Source: Thermofilum sp. NZ13 (lineage in GTDB: Archaea > Thermoproteota > Thermoprotei > Thermofilales > Thermofilaceae). From it: a stretch of 64,000 bases of DNA. Of the stretch, positions 25,589 through 32,208 are shown one piece after another; within the stretch, counting starts at the first letter, position 1, and each line of letters starts with the position of its first letter. The notes beneath the pieces are model-generated. The model had not been told where the DNA came from, searched no databases, and was given only the letters and a program-made list of their open reading frames with translations. The stretch spans positions 1 to 64,000 of the forward strand of contig NDWX01000007.1 of NCBI GenBank assembly GCA_002855745.1, written 5' to 3'. The position numbers were made by a program, and so were the translations under genes.

Positions 25589-26914
25589 GTGCCTGAGTTT
25601 CTAGACCTGTTGCTTGATGAGGTTAAGCGCAACCGGGAAGAGCTGGCAAAGATTGCGGGAGGCTCCAGCACCACAGCGGAGTGGTACAGGGAGCTTGTCC
25701 AGAGGAAGTGGAACCGCTTCCCCGAGCGAGACCTGGAGAGCCGGGCTGTTTACGCCGTCGATAGCAGTAGCGGCACGGTGGAGTTGGCTGGTGGAGGGGT
25801 TCTTGTCGTGGCGCGCTCGATAGCCCTCGGAATAGGAGGGTTGCAGAAGAGGCGCTTGCGCCTGGAGGCTTTCTACCCTAAGGATCTGAGAGACTACGAG
25901 GACTACTTGCGGCTTCTGCGCGAGCACCTTGAGCACGAGGTGGCGCTTGACGCCCTCGAGACGGATCCTGAGTTCATACTCGTGGACGGCTCGCTGTATG
26001 GCAGGATGATACACGTGCTGAAGGAGGTTGAAATACAGGATAGGGAGGACTTCATGTTCGACTACGTTGAAGCCTACAGCGACTTCCTCAGCGCTGCTCT
26101 CAGGAAGGGCGCGGTTGTCGTGGGCGTCAGCAAGGATTCGAGGTCGACTCTTTTCAAGGAAGAGGTTCTCAAGGAGCAGGTTTTGCGCATTGCCCGTGAG
26201 CACGGTCTTGACACTCAAGACATCCTCAAGCTGTGGTCTGGGCTTAGGCGGAGGCCCCGCGAGATAGTAGAGGAGGTGAGAAGGAAGACCAGCTCCGGAG
26301 TGTATCCCGCAGAGCTCTACAAGTTTTTCGAGGAGGCCAGGTCCCCTGTCCCCGACTCGAAGATCCTGTACCACCTGAACCTGGGGAGTGGGTACACGAT
26401 GCCCCTCCTCCTCAAGCTGTCAAGGGTCCTGGCAGGCCAGCTTGACCTCGTGCTCGACGACGGCTCGGTTGACCATGTGGAGAGGCTGTCGAGGGTCTTC
26501 CAGAAGACGCGTGGCAGGATTGGCTCTAGGTTTGAGGATAGGGCTAGGGATCTCATCTCGAGGCTTCGAAACTACCCCCCTGTTGCCATGTTTTACGTAG
26601 TATTCGAGAGCGGGGAGGACCCTGTGCGCGTGGATGTCGTGGCGCGAGACATTAGCGCACTTAGCGGGGCTAACGGGCTTCAGGGAGATGCGGGCCGCTT
26701 CATGGATGATAAGCCTGAGAGCCTGCTGAGAGTCATCGCCCTGCTGAGGGGGATGTACGCGGGGATCAGGGGCTACAATGTTCTTCTGCTTGAGGCTGAC
26801 CGGAGGGTTAAAATCTCAGACTCCACACTTGAGACTTACCGTGGGGTTCTGATGCGGGAGCTCGGCTTGTTCTTCCTCTTGTCGAGGGGTGAGAGGCGTG
26901 TACACTACCCTTGA
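25589..26914 (+). CDS. nurA: NurA 5'-3' nuclease for DNA end resection
   Basis: 441 residues. The two conserved manganese-binding aspartates are Asp58 in VYAVDSSSG and Asp133 in FILVDGSLYG; the later QLDLVLDDGSVDH and FYVVFES segments follow NurA order. NurA forms a dimer on the HerA hexamer and degrades the 5' strand at double-strand breaks. It heads the four-gene operon, and herA begins 26 bp inside its 3' end. Archaeal NurA proteins are usually 330-450 residues, so the length is normal. Confidence 0.9.
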   Translation: MPEFLDLLLDEVKRNREELAKIAGGSSTTAEWYRELVQRKWNRFPERDLESRAVYAVDSSSGTVELAGGGVLVVARSIALGIGGLQKRRLRLEAFYPKDLRDYEDYLRLLREHLEHEVALDALETDPEFILVDGSLYGRMIHVLKEVEIQDREDFMFDYVEAYSDFLSAALRKGAVVVGVSKDSRSTLFKEEVLKEQVLRIAREHGLDTQDILKLWSGLRRRPREIVEEVRRKTSSGVYPAELYKFFEEARSPVPDSKILYHLNLGSGYTMPLLLKLSRVLAGQLDLVLDDGSVDHVERLSRVFQKTRGRIGSRFEDRARDLISRLRNYPPVAMFYVVFESGEDPVRVDVVARDISALSGANGLQGDAGRFMDDKPESLLRVIALLRGMYAGIRGYNVLLLEADRRVKISDSTLETYRGVLMRELGLFFLLSRGERRVHYP

Positions 26915-28511
26915 ACCGATCGGGAGGATCGTCGAGGAGGCTACACCGGAGAGCTTCGTGTTCGTCACGACCAAGGAAGGGCACCCGCAGAAGTTCGAGT
27001 ACGTCGTGGTGAAGTCTAAGGAGATGTTCGGAGGCCGGTTGCAGGAGGTCAGCGTTCTGGCTCAAGTAGTCGGAGTAGTGTCGAGGAGCAGTGCCTTCAC
27101 GTCGAAGCTGGACCTAGCGACGCTCGAGCGAGTGTACAGCGCAGGGGTGGATGACTCGAACATACTGTGCATGGCTAGAACGCTGGGCTTCCTAGCCGAG
27201 GAGAACGGCAGGAAAGTTGTGCTGATGCCGAGGCGCGCTCTATTCCCGGGCAACCCGGTTTACCTGGCGCCGGACGAGCTCGTGAGGGACTTCTTCTCGT
27301 ATGACCCTGACGAAGGGTTGCACATCGGGAGTCTCGTCTCAAGACCGTCTGTGCCCGTTTACCTGAGCCTCAACGGCTTCAGGCGGCACGTAGCGGTCAT
27401 AGCTCAGACCGGCGCAGGAAAGTCGTACACAGTCGGCGTCATCCTCGAAGAACTCCTGAGGCTGGGGGGCACAGCGGTGGTGATCGACCCGCACGCGGAC
27501 TACGTTTTCCTAAGCCGCACGAGGGACATGAGGAGGCACGAGTTTTCAAACAGGATCCAGATCTTCAGAAACCCCAACAGCACGGGGAGGTACTCCCCGG
27601 ATCAGCTGGACAACGTTCACGAGCTCATCTTCAAGCTCTCGGAACTGGACGGCGACGAGGTGGCGGCCATAGCGGGCATACCCGAGAGCTGGGCGAACGT
27701 GAGGAGCGCTATAAGAGAGGCGGTGAGGGCGCTCAGGGAGGAGAAGAAAAACGCGTACGGGGTCAACGACCTCCTCGCAAAGCTCGACGAGATGGCGAGG
27801 TCCTCGGAGAAGAAGAAGAGGGAGGCGGCGAGCAGAGCGTACAACCACCTGCGCAGTCTTGTCAAACTCCGCGTGTTCGGGGACAGAACGACGCCGCTAA
27901 AGGACGAGATTCTGAGACCCGGCCACGTCTCTATTCTCGATCTTTCAGGCTTGAACGACGCGAGCCAGGACTACATCGTAAGCAGGGTTCTGGAGGGACT
28001 GTTTAACCTGAGGGCTACCGGCCAGTTCCCGTACCCTGTATTCGTGGTGATTGAGGAGGCGCATAGGTTTGTCCCCAGTAAGGCAGCGAAGAGGAGAACG
28101 ATGTCCGCGGAGATCATTAACACGATCGCCGCCGAGGGGAGGAAGTTCGGCGTCTTCCTAATACTCGTGACGCAGAGGCCCAGCAAGATAGACGCCGACA
28201 CGCTCAGCCAGTGCAACAGCCAGATAATTCTGAGGATAACGAACCCGCTGGACCAGAGAGCTGTAGCGGAGTCGAGCGAGAGGCTGGGGGAGGAGCTCAT
28301 GCGGGACCTGCCGGGGCTCAACGTCGGCGAGGCTGTGATCGTGGGTGAGCTTACTCGTATACCTGTTATCGTCAAGGTGCGCGAGAGGATGACGAGGGAG
28401 GGTGGGGCAGACATAGACCTTGTAGAGGAGTTGCGTAAGACCCGAGAGGACCTGAACCTGACGGCGCCGAGGCTTCCTCCACCTATCCGTGGGGGGTTCG
28501 CGGAGGTGTGA
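26889..28511 (+). CDS. herA: HerA bipolar DNA helicase/translocase ATPase
   Basis: 540 residues. An N-terminal beta-barrel (HAS) domain (IGRIVEEATPESFVFVT, about 5-100) is followed by the RecA-like FtsK/HerA domain: Walker A IAQTGAGKSYTVGVI near 173-180, Walker B VFVVIEEAHRF, and the LVTQRPSKIDADTLSQCNSQIILRI region typical of HerA, cited here only in part. An alternative GTG at 26898 lies three codons in. HerA hexamers thread DNA and power NurA. The stop overlaps the mre11 start region. Confidence 0.93.
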   Translation: MRGVYTTLEPIGRIVEEATPESFVFVTTKEGHPQKFEYVVVKSKEMFGGRLQEVSVLAQVVGVVSRSSAFTSKLDLATLERVYSAGVDDSNILCMARTLGFLAEENGRKVVLMPRRALFPGNPVYLAPDELVRDFFSYDPDEGLHIGSLVSRPSVPVYLSLNGFRRHVAVIAQTGAGKSYTVGVILEELLRLGGTAVVIDPHADYVFLSRTRDMRRHEFSNRIQIFRNPNSTGRYSPDQLDNVHELIFKLSELDGDEVAAIAGIPESWANVRSAIREAVRALREEKKNAYGVNDLLAKLDEMARSSEKKKREAASRAYNHLRSLVKLRVFGDRTTPLKDEILRPGHVSILDLSGLNDASQDYIVSRVLEGLFNLRATGQFPYPVFVVIEEAHRFVPSKAAKRRTMSAEIINTIAAEGRKFGVFLILVTQRPSKIDADTLSQCNSQIILRITNPLDQRAVAESSERLGEELMRDLPGLNVGEAVIVGELTRIPVIVKVRERMTREGGADIDLVEELRKTREDLNLTAPRLPPPIRGGFAEV

Positions 28512-28513
28512 GC

Positions 28514-29677
28514 ATGATAAGAATAGTGCATACGGCCGACAACCACCTAGATCCTAAGATCGGCATCATGGGCCCAAAGGCGCAGGAAAGGAGGCTCGAC
28601 TTCTACAAGTCCTTCTTGCGGGTCGTCGACTTCGCCCTGAGCGTGAAGCCTCACGTTCTCCTGATCACGGGCGACCTTTTCGACTCGGTTAACCCTAGAA
28701 ACCCCATACGCACGCGGGTTCTGCAGGCCTTGAGGAGGCTTAGCGGCGAGGGCATCAGGATTTTCGCGATAGGGGGGAACCACGACATGCCGCGCTCGCA
28801 GGAGGAAGGCATGTCCCCCCTCAGCGAGCTCGAAGCCGCGGGCTACGTGACGTTCTTCTCGGACACCGTCGAGTTCGGAGTGGAGCACCTCAGCGTCGAG
28901 GGCTTCGACGTTGCCGTGGCGGGCATATCTTACGATCACACTATCGAAGCGACGGAGAACCCCCTCCGCTACCGCAACCTCAGGATTCCTGTCGAGGGAG
29001 ACGTTAACATAGCCATGCTGCACTACAACTTCGCGGGCTTTAAGATACCGAAAAGCTGGTCTGCCCCGACTATAGCACCCGAGGATGTGCCCGAGGGGCT
29101 CCACTACCTAGCTCTGGGCCACATACACGCCCACTTCTACACAACAGTTAGAAACGCCTTCGTCGTCTACCCCGGGAGCACCGAAAGGAGGAGCTTCAAC
29201 GAGGAGGCCGACGAGAAGAAGGGCTTCGTATACGCGGAGCTCAACCCTAGGTCAGGGGCATCGCTGAGCTTCGAAGAGGTCCCCACGCGCAGGATGAAAA
29301 CAGTCTACGTCGAGCTCGAAGAGAGCGTTGAGAACCCCGTCGCGCGCGTGGTCAGCTCGACCCCTCCACCCGACCCGCAGATGATCATCCGGATTGTGGT
29401 TTCGGGTAGAATCCCCCTCGAGAAACTCTCGAGGTACAGTAGGGCGGAGATACTGAAGAGGCTTGAAGACCGCTTTTTCCTGGTCACGATCGACGACTCA
29501 GACCTGAAGTGCATCATTAAAGAGGTGCGCGTGTCCCTCGACGCAACGTCTCCAATAGAATCCTTCAGGCGCTACATGGAGGAGGCCATTAAGCAGTCCT
29601 CGGGTTACGAGGCGGAGATTGTGAAGAAGGCCCTCAGCAGGGGGTTGGAGGTCCTGCAGGAGGTGGGAGCGTGGTAG
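28514..29677 (+). CDS. mre11: Mre11 nuclease
   Basis: 387 residues from ATG 28514; the GTG at 28508 overlaps the herA stop and would add two residues. Metallophosphoesterase motifs are complete: HTADNHLD, ITGDLFDSVNP, IGGNHDM, ALGHIHAH. The C-terminal 150 residues include the capping and Rad50-binding region. Mre11 cuts near protein-blocked or hairpin ends together with Rad50, opening DNA to HerA-NurA. The gene overlaps rad50 by 7 bp. Confidence 0.93.
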   Translation: MIRIVHTADNHLDPKIGIMGPKAQERRLDFYKSFLRVVDFALSVKPHVLLITGDLFDSVNPRNPIRTRVLQALRRLSGEGIRIFAIGGNHDMPRSQEEGMSPLSELEAAGYVTFFSDTVEFGVEHLSVEGFDVAVAGISYDHTIEATENPLRYRNLRIPVEGDVNIAMLHYNFAGFKIPKSWSAPTIAPEDVPEGLHYLALGHIHAHFYTTVRNAFVVYPGSTERRSFNEEADEKKGFVYAELNPRSGASLSFEEVPTRRMKTVYVELEESVENPVARVVSSTPPPDPQMIIRIVVSGRIPLEKLSRYSRAEILKRLEDRFFLVTIDDSDLKCIIKEVRVSLDATSPIESFRRYMEEAIKQSSGYEAEIVKKALSRGLEVLQEVGAW

Positions 29678-32208
29678 TCATCAGGAGCATCAGGGCGGTC
29701 AACTTCAGGAGGCTCAGCATACCCGACCCCCTACCCCTAGACAGGGGATTCATAATTATCAGGGGGCCCAACGAGGCAGGGAAATCCACGCTCATCGAAG
29801 CAATACTCTTCGGGATCTACGGCGACCACCAGGCAATAGGCGCTATCAGGGGCAACCCTCAGAGAGGCTACGCGGAAGTCGTGAACCACAGGTCTCGAAG
29901 AGCGCTGGTCGAGGTCGAGTTCGAGGTTGAGGGAAAGAGGTTCAGGGTGGCTCGCGAGCTCGAAAGGGATGGGGACTCGATCAGGCAGGTGAGCGCCAAG
30001 CTGATCGAGATCACGGGTGGCGGAGAGAGGCTGATCGCGACGGGGGTTAAGGCGGTGAACGAGGAGGTCCAGCGCATTATCCGCGTCTCGTGGCGTGAGA
30101 TGCTGTCGACGAACATCGTGGCACAGAAGGACCTCGAGAGAATAATCGAGATGAACAAGGGTGACCGCGAGAAGATAATCAACCTGATGATGGGGCTTGA
30201 GAGCTACAACAAGGCCATGCAGCGGCTAGACGAGGAGAGGCGCGACAAGGAGAGGAAGAGGGAGGACCTCGCGAGGGCTGTCGAAGAGCTTGAGGGGAAA
30301 ATAAGGGAGCTAGAGGAGCTGAGGAAAAAAGTCTCTGAGTGGAGGGACCTGTTGGAGAAGACTAGGGCTGAGGCTTCGAGGCTACTGGAAAAAGAGAAAA
30401 TCCTCAAAATCGCGAGGAGCTACCTAGAGGATCTTCGCAAATTTATGGAGCGCAGGCAAGAGCTGGAGAGGAAAATCGAAGCGGTCGAGAGAGAGGCGAA
30501 GACCATTCAGGACTATCTGGCGAATTTCGAGAAGAGCCTTAGGGACCAGGAGAACGACCTCAAATACATAGGCGAGCAGAAGCCCTATCTGCAAAGGAAG
30601 GTTAAGGATCTGGATGACGAGATCACTCAGGCTCAAAGCACGCTAGAGCAGCACTCGAAGCTACTGGCTGAGATCAAGAGGTACTACGAGATGCGGGAGG
30701 AGATACTGGCGAGGATAAAGCAGCTCGCCGATCAGATATCCGAGGCTGAGCTCGAGGTCGAGCGACTGGAACTGGCCCGCGCAGAAGTCGAGGATATTAA
30801 AAGGCAGAAAGCGGCGCTGGAGCAGGAGCTGTCCAGGCTCAGCACTCCGGTCTGGTCCAAAGTAGGGGTGGCTGCATCCCTAGTATCCGCTCTGCTCTTC
30901 CTTGCGCTCAGCCCCCTGCTCTCTGTAGTTTCCATTCTAATCGGCGCCGTGCTTGCTCTGAGTGGTTTTCAGCTGAAGGCGAGAAGGCAGCACGTGATCG
31001 CGTCCCAGGCAATGAAGCTGGACTCCGAGATAAGAGCCAAGGAGGCTCTGTCATCCAGCCTGGATCGCGAGAAAAACAGGTTGGAAGAACTCACGAGGGA
31101 GAAGAGCGCTCTCGAGGACAAGGTTAGATTCCTGGAGGCTTCGATATCCGAAATTGCCTCGAAGTCTGGCTTAGAGGAGTTGAAATCACCATCAGACGTA
31201 GTTGACGTCGTCGAAGGAGAGGTTGAGCGCCTGAAGGCCCAGGTTGAGGAGCTAAGGCAAAGCAAGTCGAGGCTCGAAGCAGAGATCATGGCTCTGGAGA
31301 AGAGAGAGCAGGAGCTGAGAAGAAGCATCGAGAGGACGCGGAGCGAGATCAGCTCGCTGAGGCTCAGGCTCAGCCAGCTTGCAGAGGAAAAGGGTAAGGT
31401 TGAGGCTGAGCTAAAAAGCATGTCGCCTCCAGAGCTCCCTGAGGAGTTGTTAGGTCAGCTTAACTACGTCGACAGTGTTTCTAGAAACCCATCCCTTGAA
31501 TCCGTCAATGAGGCTCTGAGGCATGTCGACGAGGAGCTGAGCGACGTCAGCCAGAGGCGGGCAAGACAGGAAGAGACCATCAAGAACCTGACGGAGAGAA
31601 TTAGTGAAGCCGAGGAGAAAATACTCCATCTGGACGAGCTAAAGAAGAACCTTGAAACCACGCGCACCGAGCTACAGAAGGTCGAGGAAGATGTGAAGGT
31701 CGCTCAGAAAGCCATTGAGGCCATGAGGGAGATCTCTAGGAAGAGGCGGGAGGCCTTCGCACCGAGCGTTGAAAACCATATGAGCAATATCATCTCATAC
31801 TTCACGGGAGGCAGGTACCGGGCTGTCCGGCTCGACCCAGAGACCTACGACATAGAAGTCTACGACACCGAGGCTGGAAGGTGGCTTAGGAGAGACGTGT
31901 ACTCAGGCGGCACGAACGACCAGTTCCTCCTCGCCATGAGGATCGCTTTCACGCTAACCCTGCTCCCCGGGGCTAAGGGCTCTTACCCCCGGTTCCTGGT
32001 TCTCGACGAGCCCCTCGGCTCCTCCGACGTCGAGAGAAGGGAGCGGATAATGAGGTACTTCAGCGAGGAGCTCACCAGGTACTTCGACCAGATCTTCCTC
32101 ATAACCCACGTTGACGTAGACGAGCCCCCCAACTCCACTGTGGTGCACGTAGAGGACGGGAGGATAGAGCGCGTGGTAAGAGTAAGCGGAGGCATGGAGG
32201 AAATTTAA
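29671..32208 (+). CDS. rad50: Rad50-like ATPase with an apical membrane hairpin instead of a zinc hook
   Basis: 845 residues from a GTG. Walker A is GPNEAGKST (residues 32-40), the Q-loop lies in NIVAQKD, the signature is YSGGTNDQFLLAMR and Walker B is FLVLDEPLGSSD. Two long coiled coils (about 175-390 and 440-720) flank the centre. The centre, where Rad50 has C-x-x-C, instead holds two hydrophobic segments at about 398-414 and 415-435 (VGVAASLVSALLFLALS; PLLSVVSILIGAVLALSGF), followed by KARRQH. There is no cysteine in the whole protein. Gene order and the ATPase head say Rad50; the apex says membrane attachment or a hydrophobic dimer contact. The final 7-bp overlap with mre11 makes it the last gene of the operon. 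Confidence 0.9.
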   Translation: MVVIRSIRAVNFRRLSIPDPLPLDRGFIIIRGPNEAGKSTLIEAILFGIYGDHQAIGAIRGNPQRGYAEVVNHRSRRALVEVEFEVEGKRFRVARELERDGDSIRQVSAKLIEITGGGERLIATGVKAVNEEVQRIIRVSWREMLSTNIVAQKDLERIIEMNKGDREKIINLMMGLESYNKAMQRLDEERRDKERKREDLARAVEELEGKIRELEELRKKVSEWRDLLEKTRAEASRLLEKEKILKIARSYLEDLRKFMERRQELERKIEAVEREAKTIQDYLANFEKSLRDQENDLKYIGEQKPYLQRKVKDLDDEITQAQSTLEQHSKLLAEIKRYYEMREEILARIKQLADQISEAELEVERLELARAEVEDIKRQKAALEQELSRLSTPVWSKVGVAASLVSALLFLALSPLLSVVSILIGAVLALSGFQLKARRQHVIASQAMKLDSEIRAKEALSSSLDREKNRLEELTREKSALEDKVRFLEASISEIASKSGLEELKSPSDVVDVVEGEVERLKAQVEELRQSKSRLEAEIMALEKREQELRRSIERTRSEISSLRLRLSQLAEEKGKVEAELKSMSPPELPEELLGQLNYVDSVSRNPSLESVNEALRHVDEELSDVSQRRARQEETIKNLTERISEAEEKILHLDELKKNLETTRTELQKVEEDVKVAQKAIEAMREISRKRREAFAPSVENHMSNIISYFTGGRYRAVRLDPETYDIEVYDTEAGRWLRRDVYSGGTNDQFLLAMRIAFTLTLLPGAKGSYPRFLVLDEPLGSSDVERRERIMRYFSEELTRYFDQIFLITHVDVDEPPNSTVVHVEDGRIERVVRVSGGMEEI

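Follow-up and report, generated by a model that had tools for sequence, protein, structure and literature searches.

A hookless subfamily of Rad50 with a candidate membrane hairpin at its apex in Thermoproteota

The zinc hook is regarded as a hallmark of Rad50, central to the dimerising of Mre11-Rad50 and to its tethering of DNA ends. What, then, takes its place in a Rad50 without a single cysteine? The question is raised by a gene of Thermofilum sp. NZ13 (assembly GCA_002855745.1), on the first 64,000 nucleotides of contig NDWX01000007.1, which were analysed here as one stretch (the window). Its rad50 open reading frame (29671-32208, + strand, as are all features given below for the window) begins with GTG and encodes 845 amino acids, among which we counted zero cysteines, as the original prediction for this DNA had claimed. 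The exact middle of the protein is instead occupied by a charge-free segment of 38 residues (398-435) that resembles a hydrophobic hairpin. We use TM-Rad50 (TM for transmembrane) as a working name for the hookless subfamily that has such an apex. Our favoured explanation, held with reasonable confidence on the basis of sequence, is that this is a true Mre11-Rad50 complex whose hairpin apex anchors it in the membrane.

The apex hairpin and its conservation

The hairpin consists of hydrophobic helix 1 (residues 398-414, VGVAASLVSALLFLALS; 30862-30912), a turn at Pro415 (30913-30915) and hydrophobic helix 2 (416-435, LLSVVSILIGAVLALSGFQL; 30916-30975), and is followed by a basic cap, KARRQH (436-441; 30976-30993), a positively charged flank being found in almost all orthologues. 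The original prediction, which had put the hairpin at about 398-435 with this cap, was right to within a few residues. Just ahead of helix 1 lies a putative interfacial motif, P-x-W-S-K (393-397; 30847-30861); an alignment of the Thermofilaceae shows no change at Pro393 and next to none at Trp395 and Pro415. Mean Kyte-Doolittle hydropathy is 2.16 for residues 398-416 and 2.21 for 416-435, and the two helices have Eisenberg mean hydrophobicities of 0.75 and 0.80 with hydrophobic moments of 0.17 and 0.09, respectively. Such values are typical of buried transmembrane helices, not of the amphipathic helices of a bundle. None of the residues 398-435 is D, E, K or R, whereas charged residues make up 43% of the coiled-coil arms of the clade on average and never less than 35%; for each start position, 38 uncharged residues in a row would have a probability of about 6e-8 or less. 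An AlphaFold2 (AF2) model places two helices here (394-413 and 415-461) that link the two long arms and are broken at Pro415. The AF2 model of a relative from a Thermoproteota metagenome-assembled genome (L064) resembles that of the window protein, with low confidence at the apex.

The hairpin is conserved among relatives. At E<=1e-40, 25 of the sampled genomes were matched, two of which (G226 and G392) were set aside as hook-bearing, so that 23 of 398 carry TM-Rad50. A hydrophobic apex was found in 23/23 TM-Rad50 proteins, the window's included, and CxxC in 0/23. All full-length Thermofilaceae homologues of the TM type have the hairpin and lack CxxC, and wider searches recovered the type in a second family of the order (G021-G023), the L064 genome and six more families; the Thermoproteota families that have it number at least eight. 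The apex lies at 0.47-0.52 of the protein length in all orthologues, even where identity falls to about 27-31%. It measures 38-48 residues, with a turn of one to seven residues, usually containing Pro, Asn or Gly, between the helices; 19 of the 22 measured hairpins have no D, E, K or R, and the other three have one such residue each. Over six residues, the net charge averages +1.6 before the hairpin and +2.0 after it, against a background of -0.17. The residues of the apex change freely (compare AAASIIIAFVLLFLGGVLPALLLVAAGVVFLIIVF in L119 with MPMILTGFLIILAGAALSRINLTIGGAAIFLGILILGF in L064), while hydrophobicity, length, mid-position and basic flanks stay. The presence of the hairpin in every orthologue, including those from complete genomes, rules out chance or a frameshift artefact. 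The original prediction was open to challenge from relatives that keep the hook or lose the hydrophobicity; among relatives of the TM type, CxxC is never present and the segment is always hydrophobic.

Other Rad50-like proteins of the same phylum look different. We compared the apices of 54 other Rad50-like proteins, six of which belong to the arcadin-4 clade and are not operon Rad50s. CxxC was present in 50 of these 54 and a hydrophobic hairpin in none, and the highest 19-residue hydropathy of their mid-regions (1.28) is below the lowest in the TM group (1.95). Hook and hairpin are thus mutually exclusive in the sampled proteins. Three operon Rad50s have neither (L170, 3969-6299; L198, 3062-5341, - strand; L199, 3488-5764, - strand); these group in a clade of their own, as do their Mre11 partners (100/100), and the zinc hook is therefore not universal even among archaeal operon Rad50s.

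Identity and descent of TM-Rad50

Is the protein a Rad50 at all? The top curated models for it are of archaeal Rad50 (NCBIfam PRK03918, 1.7e-37), the closest sequences of solved structure in the PDB are archaeal Rad50s, and the top PDB match of its AF2 model is Chaetomium Rad50 in the Mre11-Rad50-Nbs1 complex. A split ABC ATPase head is kept at the two ends in all orthologues, with Walker A (GPNEAGKST, residues 32-40; 29764-29790), the signature (YSGGTNDQF, 744-752; 31900-31926) and Walker B with the D-loop (LVLDEPLGSSD, 776-786; 31996-32028). Between the head halves, AF2 predicts long antiparallel coiled-coil arms, the first at residues 177-388 (30199-30834; about 31 nm if fully helical) and the second, with breaks, at 436-711 (30976-31803). 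The gene stands last in the order nurA, herA, mre11, rad50, each gene overlapping the next: nurA, for the 5'-3' nuclease of end resection (25589-26914, 441 aa; Pfam NurA, 1.3e-19), opens the conserved operon and is followed by herA, for the hexameric translocase/helicase (26889-28511, 540 aa; Pfam DUF87/HerA central domain, 2.6e-42), and mre11 (28508-29677, 389 aa; NCBIfam Mre11_Sulfo, 1.2e-24). This is also the order in most other TM-Rad50 loci, and the mre11 neighbour is conserved. The Rad50 call, made originally from the head, coiled coils and nurA-herA-mre11, is therefore backed by models, PDB relatives and the trees described below.

The protein is nevertheless not a canonical Rad50. Its head, paired arms, Mre11 partner and operon with HerA and NurA are shared with archaeal operon Rad50s of the Sulfolobus and Pyrococcus type, but it has a hydrophobic hairpin where these have a CxxC zinc hook. 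Walker A reads GxNEAGKST in TM-Rad50 and mostly NGAGKSS in hook Rad50s, and the signature is SGG[T/M/A]xDQ instead of the SGGE of most hook Rad50s. As the window protein scores far under the NCBIfam cut-off of 700 bits, we assign it by sequence to a divergent, hookless subfamily of Rad50; several hook-bearing proteins of the phylum likewise score under the cut-offs of their models.

We followed the descent of the subfamily in two unrooted trees, one of the partner Mre11, chosen since Mre11 lacks the trait, and one of Rad50 heads built without the arms and from rows with no bacterial or eukaryotic sequences. The Mre11s linked to TM-Rad50, the window's among them, form one clade (99 in the Shimodaira-Hasegawa-like approximate likelihood ratio test, SH-aLRT, with 70 rows; bootstrap/SH-aLRT of 100/100 with 56 rows), as do the TM-Rad50 heads (support 99), which are nested among hook Rad50s and apart from arcadin-4. 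The nearest relatives in both trees are the hook-bearing sets L177, L181 and L182. Because the TM clade is monophyletic and lies within the hook-bearing archaeal Rad50s, its simplest history is that a hairpin took the place of the hook once.

This placement bears on whether the protein is an archaeal YhaN instead of a Rad50, inherited from a bacterial pair like YhaO and YhaN. Bacterial YhaN is Rad50-like, with a hydrophobic mid-segment and a Mre11-like partner, YhaO. The motifs GxNEAGKST and SGGTxDQ and the hydrophobic middle may resemble those of YhaN, and there is a weak match to Pfam AAA_27 (1.4e-4; 24.8 bits in the genome search, with a 22-bit cut-off). However, that model is not specific, as a protein of 808 aa on contig C28 of the same genome, probably arcadin-4, scores higher (26.3 bits). 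Archaeal top models and PDB relatives, an archaeal operon, and heads and partner Mre11 that both nest beside archaeal hook sets make such an inheritance highly improbable. A literature search on a membrane segment in YhaN found no paper.

Other Rad50-like proteins can be told apart from TM-Rad50. Arcadin-4, of the crenactin cluster, is also Rad50-derived and is found in genomes of the same family, but it has CxxC, lacks an Mre11 partner and forms a separate clade. The window protein is not arcadin-4: its match to Rkd4 (8.4e-7) is much weaker than that to the Rad50 model, and its neighbours are nurA, herA and mre11. Six arcadin-4-type proteins (L053-L056, L058 and L059) keep the CxxC hook with no adjoining Mre11 gene, and crenactin adjoins the gene where the neighbourhood was read (L053 and L055). 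LmuB of the Lamassu system is a Rad50-like SMC ATPase, and its PADLOC model PDLC03859 covers nearly all of TM-Rad50 (2e-42). Unlike Lamassu, the TM-Rad50 locus holds nurA-herA-mre11 and neither LmuA nor LmuC; PADLOC searches with NurA, HerA and Mre11 matched a model for HerA only, and none matched an Lmu model. LmuB and the TM-Rad50 subfamily may share ancestry. Finally, the model of archaeal SMC-related proteins (ASRP, also coalescin or Sph) matches TM-Rad50 at 4e-30, less well than the Rad50 model, and ASRPs mostly retain the zinc hook (PMC9389158). The word 'transmembrane' is absent from that survey of archaeal SMC-related proteins (PMC9389158), and our literature search, with most subscription papers outside its reach, returned no account of a Rad50 with a membrane apex.

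Probable membrane anchoring and its alternatives

What might the hairpin do? Its two helices are non-amphipathic and of sufficient length to cross a membrane, its flanks are of the positive-inside kind, and we consider its insertion into the membrane very likely. The original prediction of a membrane hairpin is thus supported at the level of sequence, since hydrophobicity, very low moment and basic flanks fit it better than they fit a soluble dimer interface. Rad50 is also the likely anchor among the four proteins, because the top 19-residue hydropathy of NurA, HerA and Mre11 is only 1.35-1.69.

We propose that a helical hairpin took over from the zinc hook, probably in a single event, and that it inserts into the cytoplasmic membrane. 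As suggested by the basic residues on either side of the hairpin, the two arms would both enter from the cytoplasm, with the short Pro/Asn/Gly turn reaching across to the opposite face. Mre11 and the ATPase heads would then be suspended in the cytoplasm at up to about 30 nm from the membrane; a 212-residue helical arm would span about 31 nm, so that anchored heads could reach DNA well off the membrane. DNA ends would be captured there, trimmed and passed on to the HerA-NurA of the same operon. In place of one zinc shared by two hooks, apices would be joined by co-anchoring, possibly with packing of helices within the membrane, and the membrane would hold together the apices of one complex or of several.

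Alternatively, the membrane might play no part, and the hairpins of two Rad50s might come together in solution as a four-helix bundle that does the work of the zinc-bridged hook. Rad50 dimerises at its apex, and a tight turn containing Pro would be in keeping with a compact bundle. Yet such a bundle would have to be polar on its outside, and all faces of these helices are hydrophobic; together with helices of about 17-22 residues, a basic flank at either end of the hairpin and a Trp at the presumed interface, this makes a soluble apex improbable. Several points do weigh against membrane anchoring. The hydropathy and moment values come from scales applied by script, and the AF2 model by itself puts no membrane around the hairpin. 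L178 in G300, a further TM-Rad50 and the most divergent one, lacks the basic flanks. In the Thermofilaceae the hairpin loop is nearly without polar residues, and a monotopic hairpin that crosses incompletely, or a hydrophobic apex independent of lipid, is therefore possible. As to function, some genomes hold two sets, so that a general repair role is not assured in every carrier.

Role and distribution of the complex

We counted the Mre11s of TM-Rad50 carriers in searches with a canonical Mre11 alignment. Only one Mre11 was found in 20 of 24 carrier genomes (G013, G011, G012, G015, G016, G014, G002, G007-G010, G021-G023, G101, G122, G197, G355, G376 and G400). Four of these, from the window's genus (G011, G013, G016 and G012), are complete or near-complete; among the rest are several drafts in pieces, where a second set could be missing. 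CxxC proteins of roughly 800 aa were considered as the true Rad50 of these genomes and rejected as arcadin-4, given crenactin beside them in L053 and L055.

Two sets are present in the remaining four carriers, which are G096, G181, G109 and G000, the assembly of the window. In G096 and G181 the second is a complete nurA-herA-mre11-rad50 operon with a Rad50 that has neither hook nor hairpin, and no zinc-hook Rad50 was found in an Mre11 operon of these two genomes. The window's assembly carries a hook-bearing mre11-rad50-nurA-herA set on contig C14 (L005, 4741-11244). Because G013, a complete genome of this species, lacks the C14 set, and because GC content at third codon positions is much lower in the rad50 and herA of that set than in the window's (0.54-0.58 versus 0.73-0.78), the set may be foreign DNA or contamination. 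The original prediction had spoken of a trait of 'this lineage'. It is indeed present there, but it is scattered over at least eight families, and Thermofilaceae of other genera showed only a hook-bearing operon in the genomes searched.

In Sulfolobus islandicus, nurA, herA, mre11 and rad50 are each essential (PMC4351679). By analogy, and because many carriers yielded no other Mre11, the TM-Rad50 set is likely to do housekeeping work. The main DNA-end-processing machine of these archaea is probably membrane-anchored. In Thermofilum and a number of further lineages the TM-Rad50 set is the only Mre11-Rad50 found, so that their ordinary double-strand-break resection probably takes place at the membrane. 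More tentatively, essential end resection at the membrane by anchored Mre11-Rad50 with HerA-NurA, its apex joined without zinc, could couple repair to DNA uptake or exchange, or to chromosome anchoring. If so, the function of the apex can be supplied by the membrane instead of the hook, a core repair reaction is placed at a defined cellular site, and these archaea offer a natural test of what the zinc hook is for. This archaeal subfamily is widespread, and in several species it is the sole Mre11-Rad50 complex found.

A different role, compatible with a membrane hairpin, would be that of a specialised membrane-bound nuclease, with Rad50 tethered where DNA enters, for defence against incoming DNA or for its uptake. 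Four genomes do hold the TM set next to another set, PADLOC models of LmuB and HerA match two of the operon proteins, and the patchy distribution suggests transfer or differential loss. Moreover, Ted DNA-exchange loci in some Thermoproteales carry rad50 and herA-like genes (PMC9905601), and Beltran et al. proposed that HerA-NurA makes single-stranded DNA for the Ced and Ted systems (PMC9905601), which makes a possible link of TM-Rad50 to DNA uptake attractive. On the other hand, the prevalence of sole-Mre11 carriers, near-complete genomes included, and an operon without a Lamassu effector or other defence gene render a purely specialised nuclease unlikely; one machine might also combine repair and uptake. 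We rejected a viral origin, as no relative of TM-Rad50 was found in viral contigs. Descent from a Ted-locus Rad50 was likewise set aside, as the nine operon Rad50s read from families f13 and f14 of the class, which may or may not lie in Ted loci, have the hook and no hairpin.

The gene content of TM-Rad50 loci varies. In family f62 (L113, L121 and L115), mre11 and TM-rad50 stand together with no herA or nurA detected beside them, and the TM-Rad50 type is therefore separable from the operon. The most divergent TM-Rad50 (L201, 7718-9973, in G300; 751 aa) has Mre11 upstream and a weakly HerA-like gene further downstream, with no NurA detected nearby, and it suggests that the type extends more widely than our searches reached.

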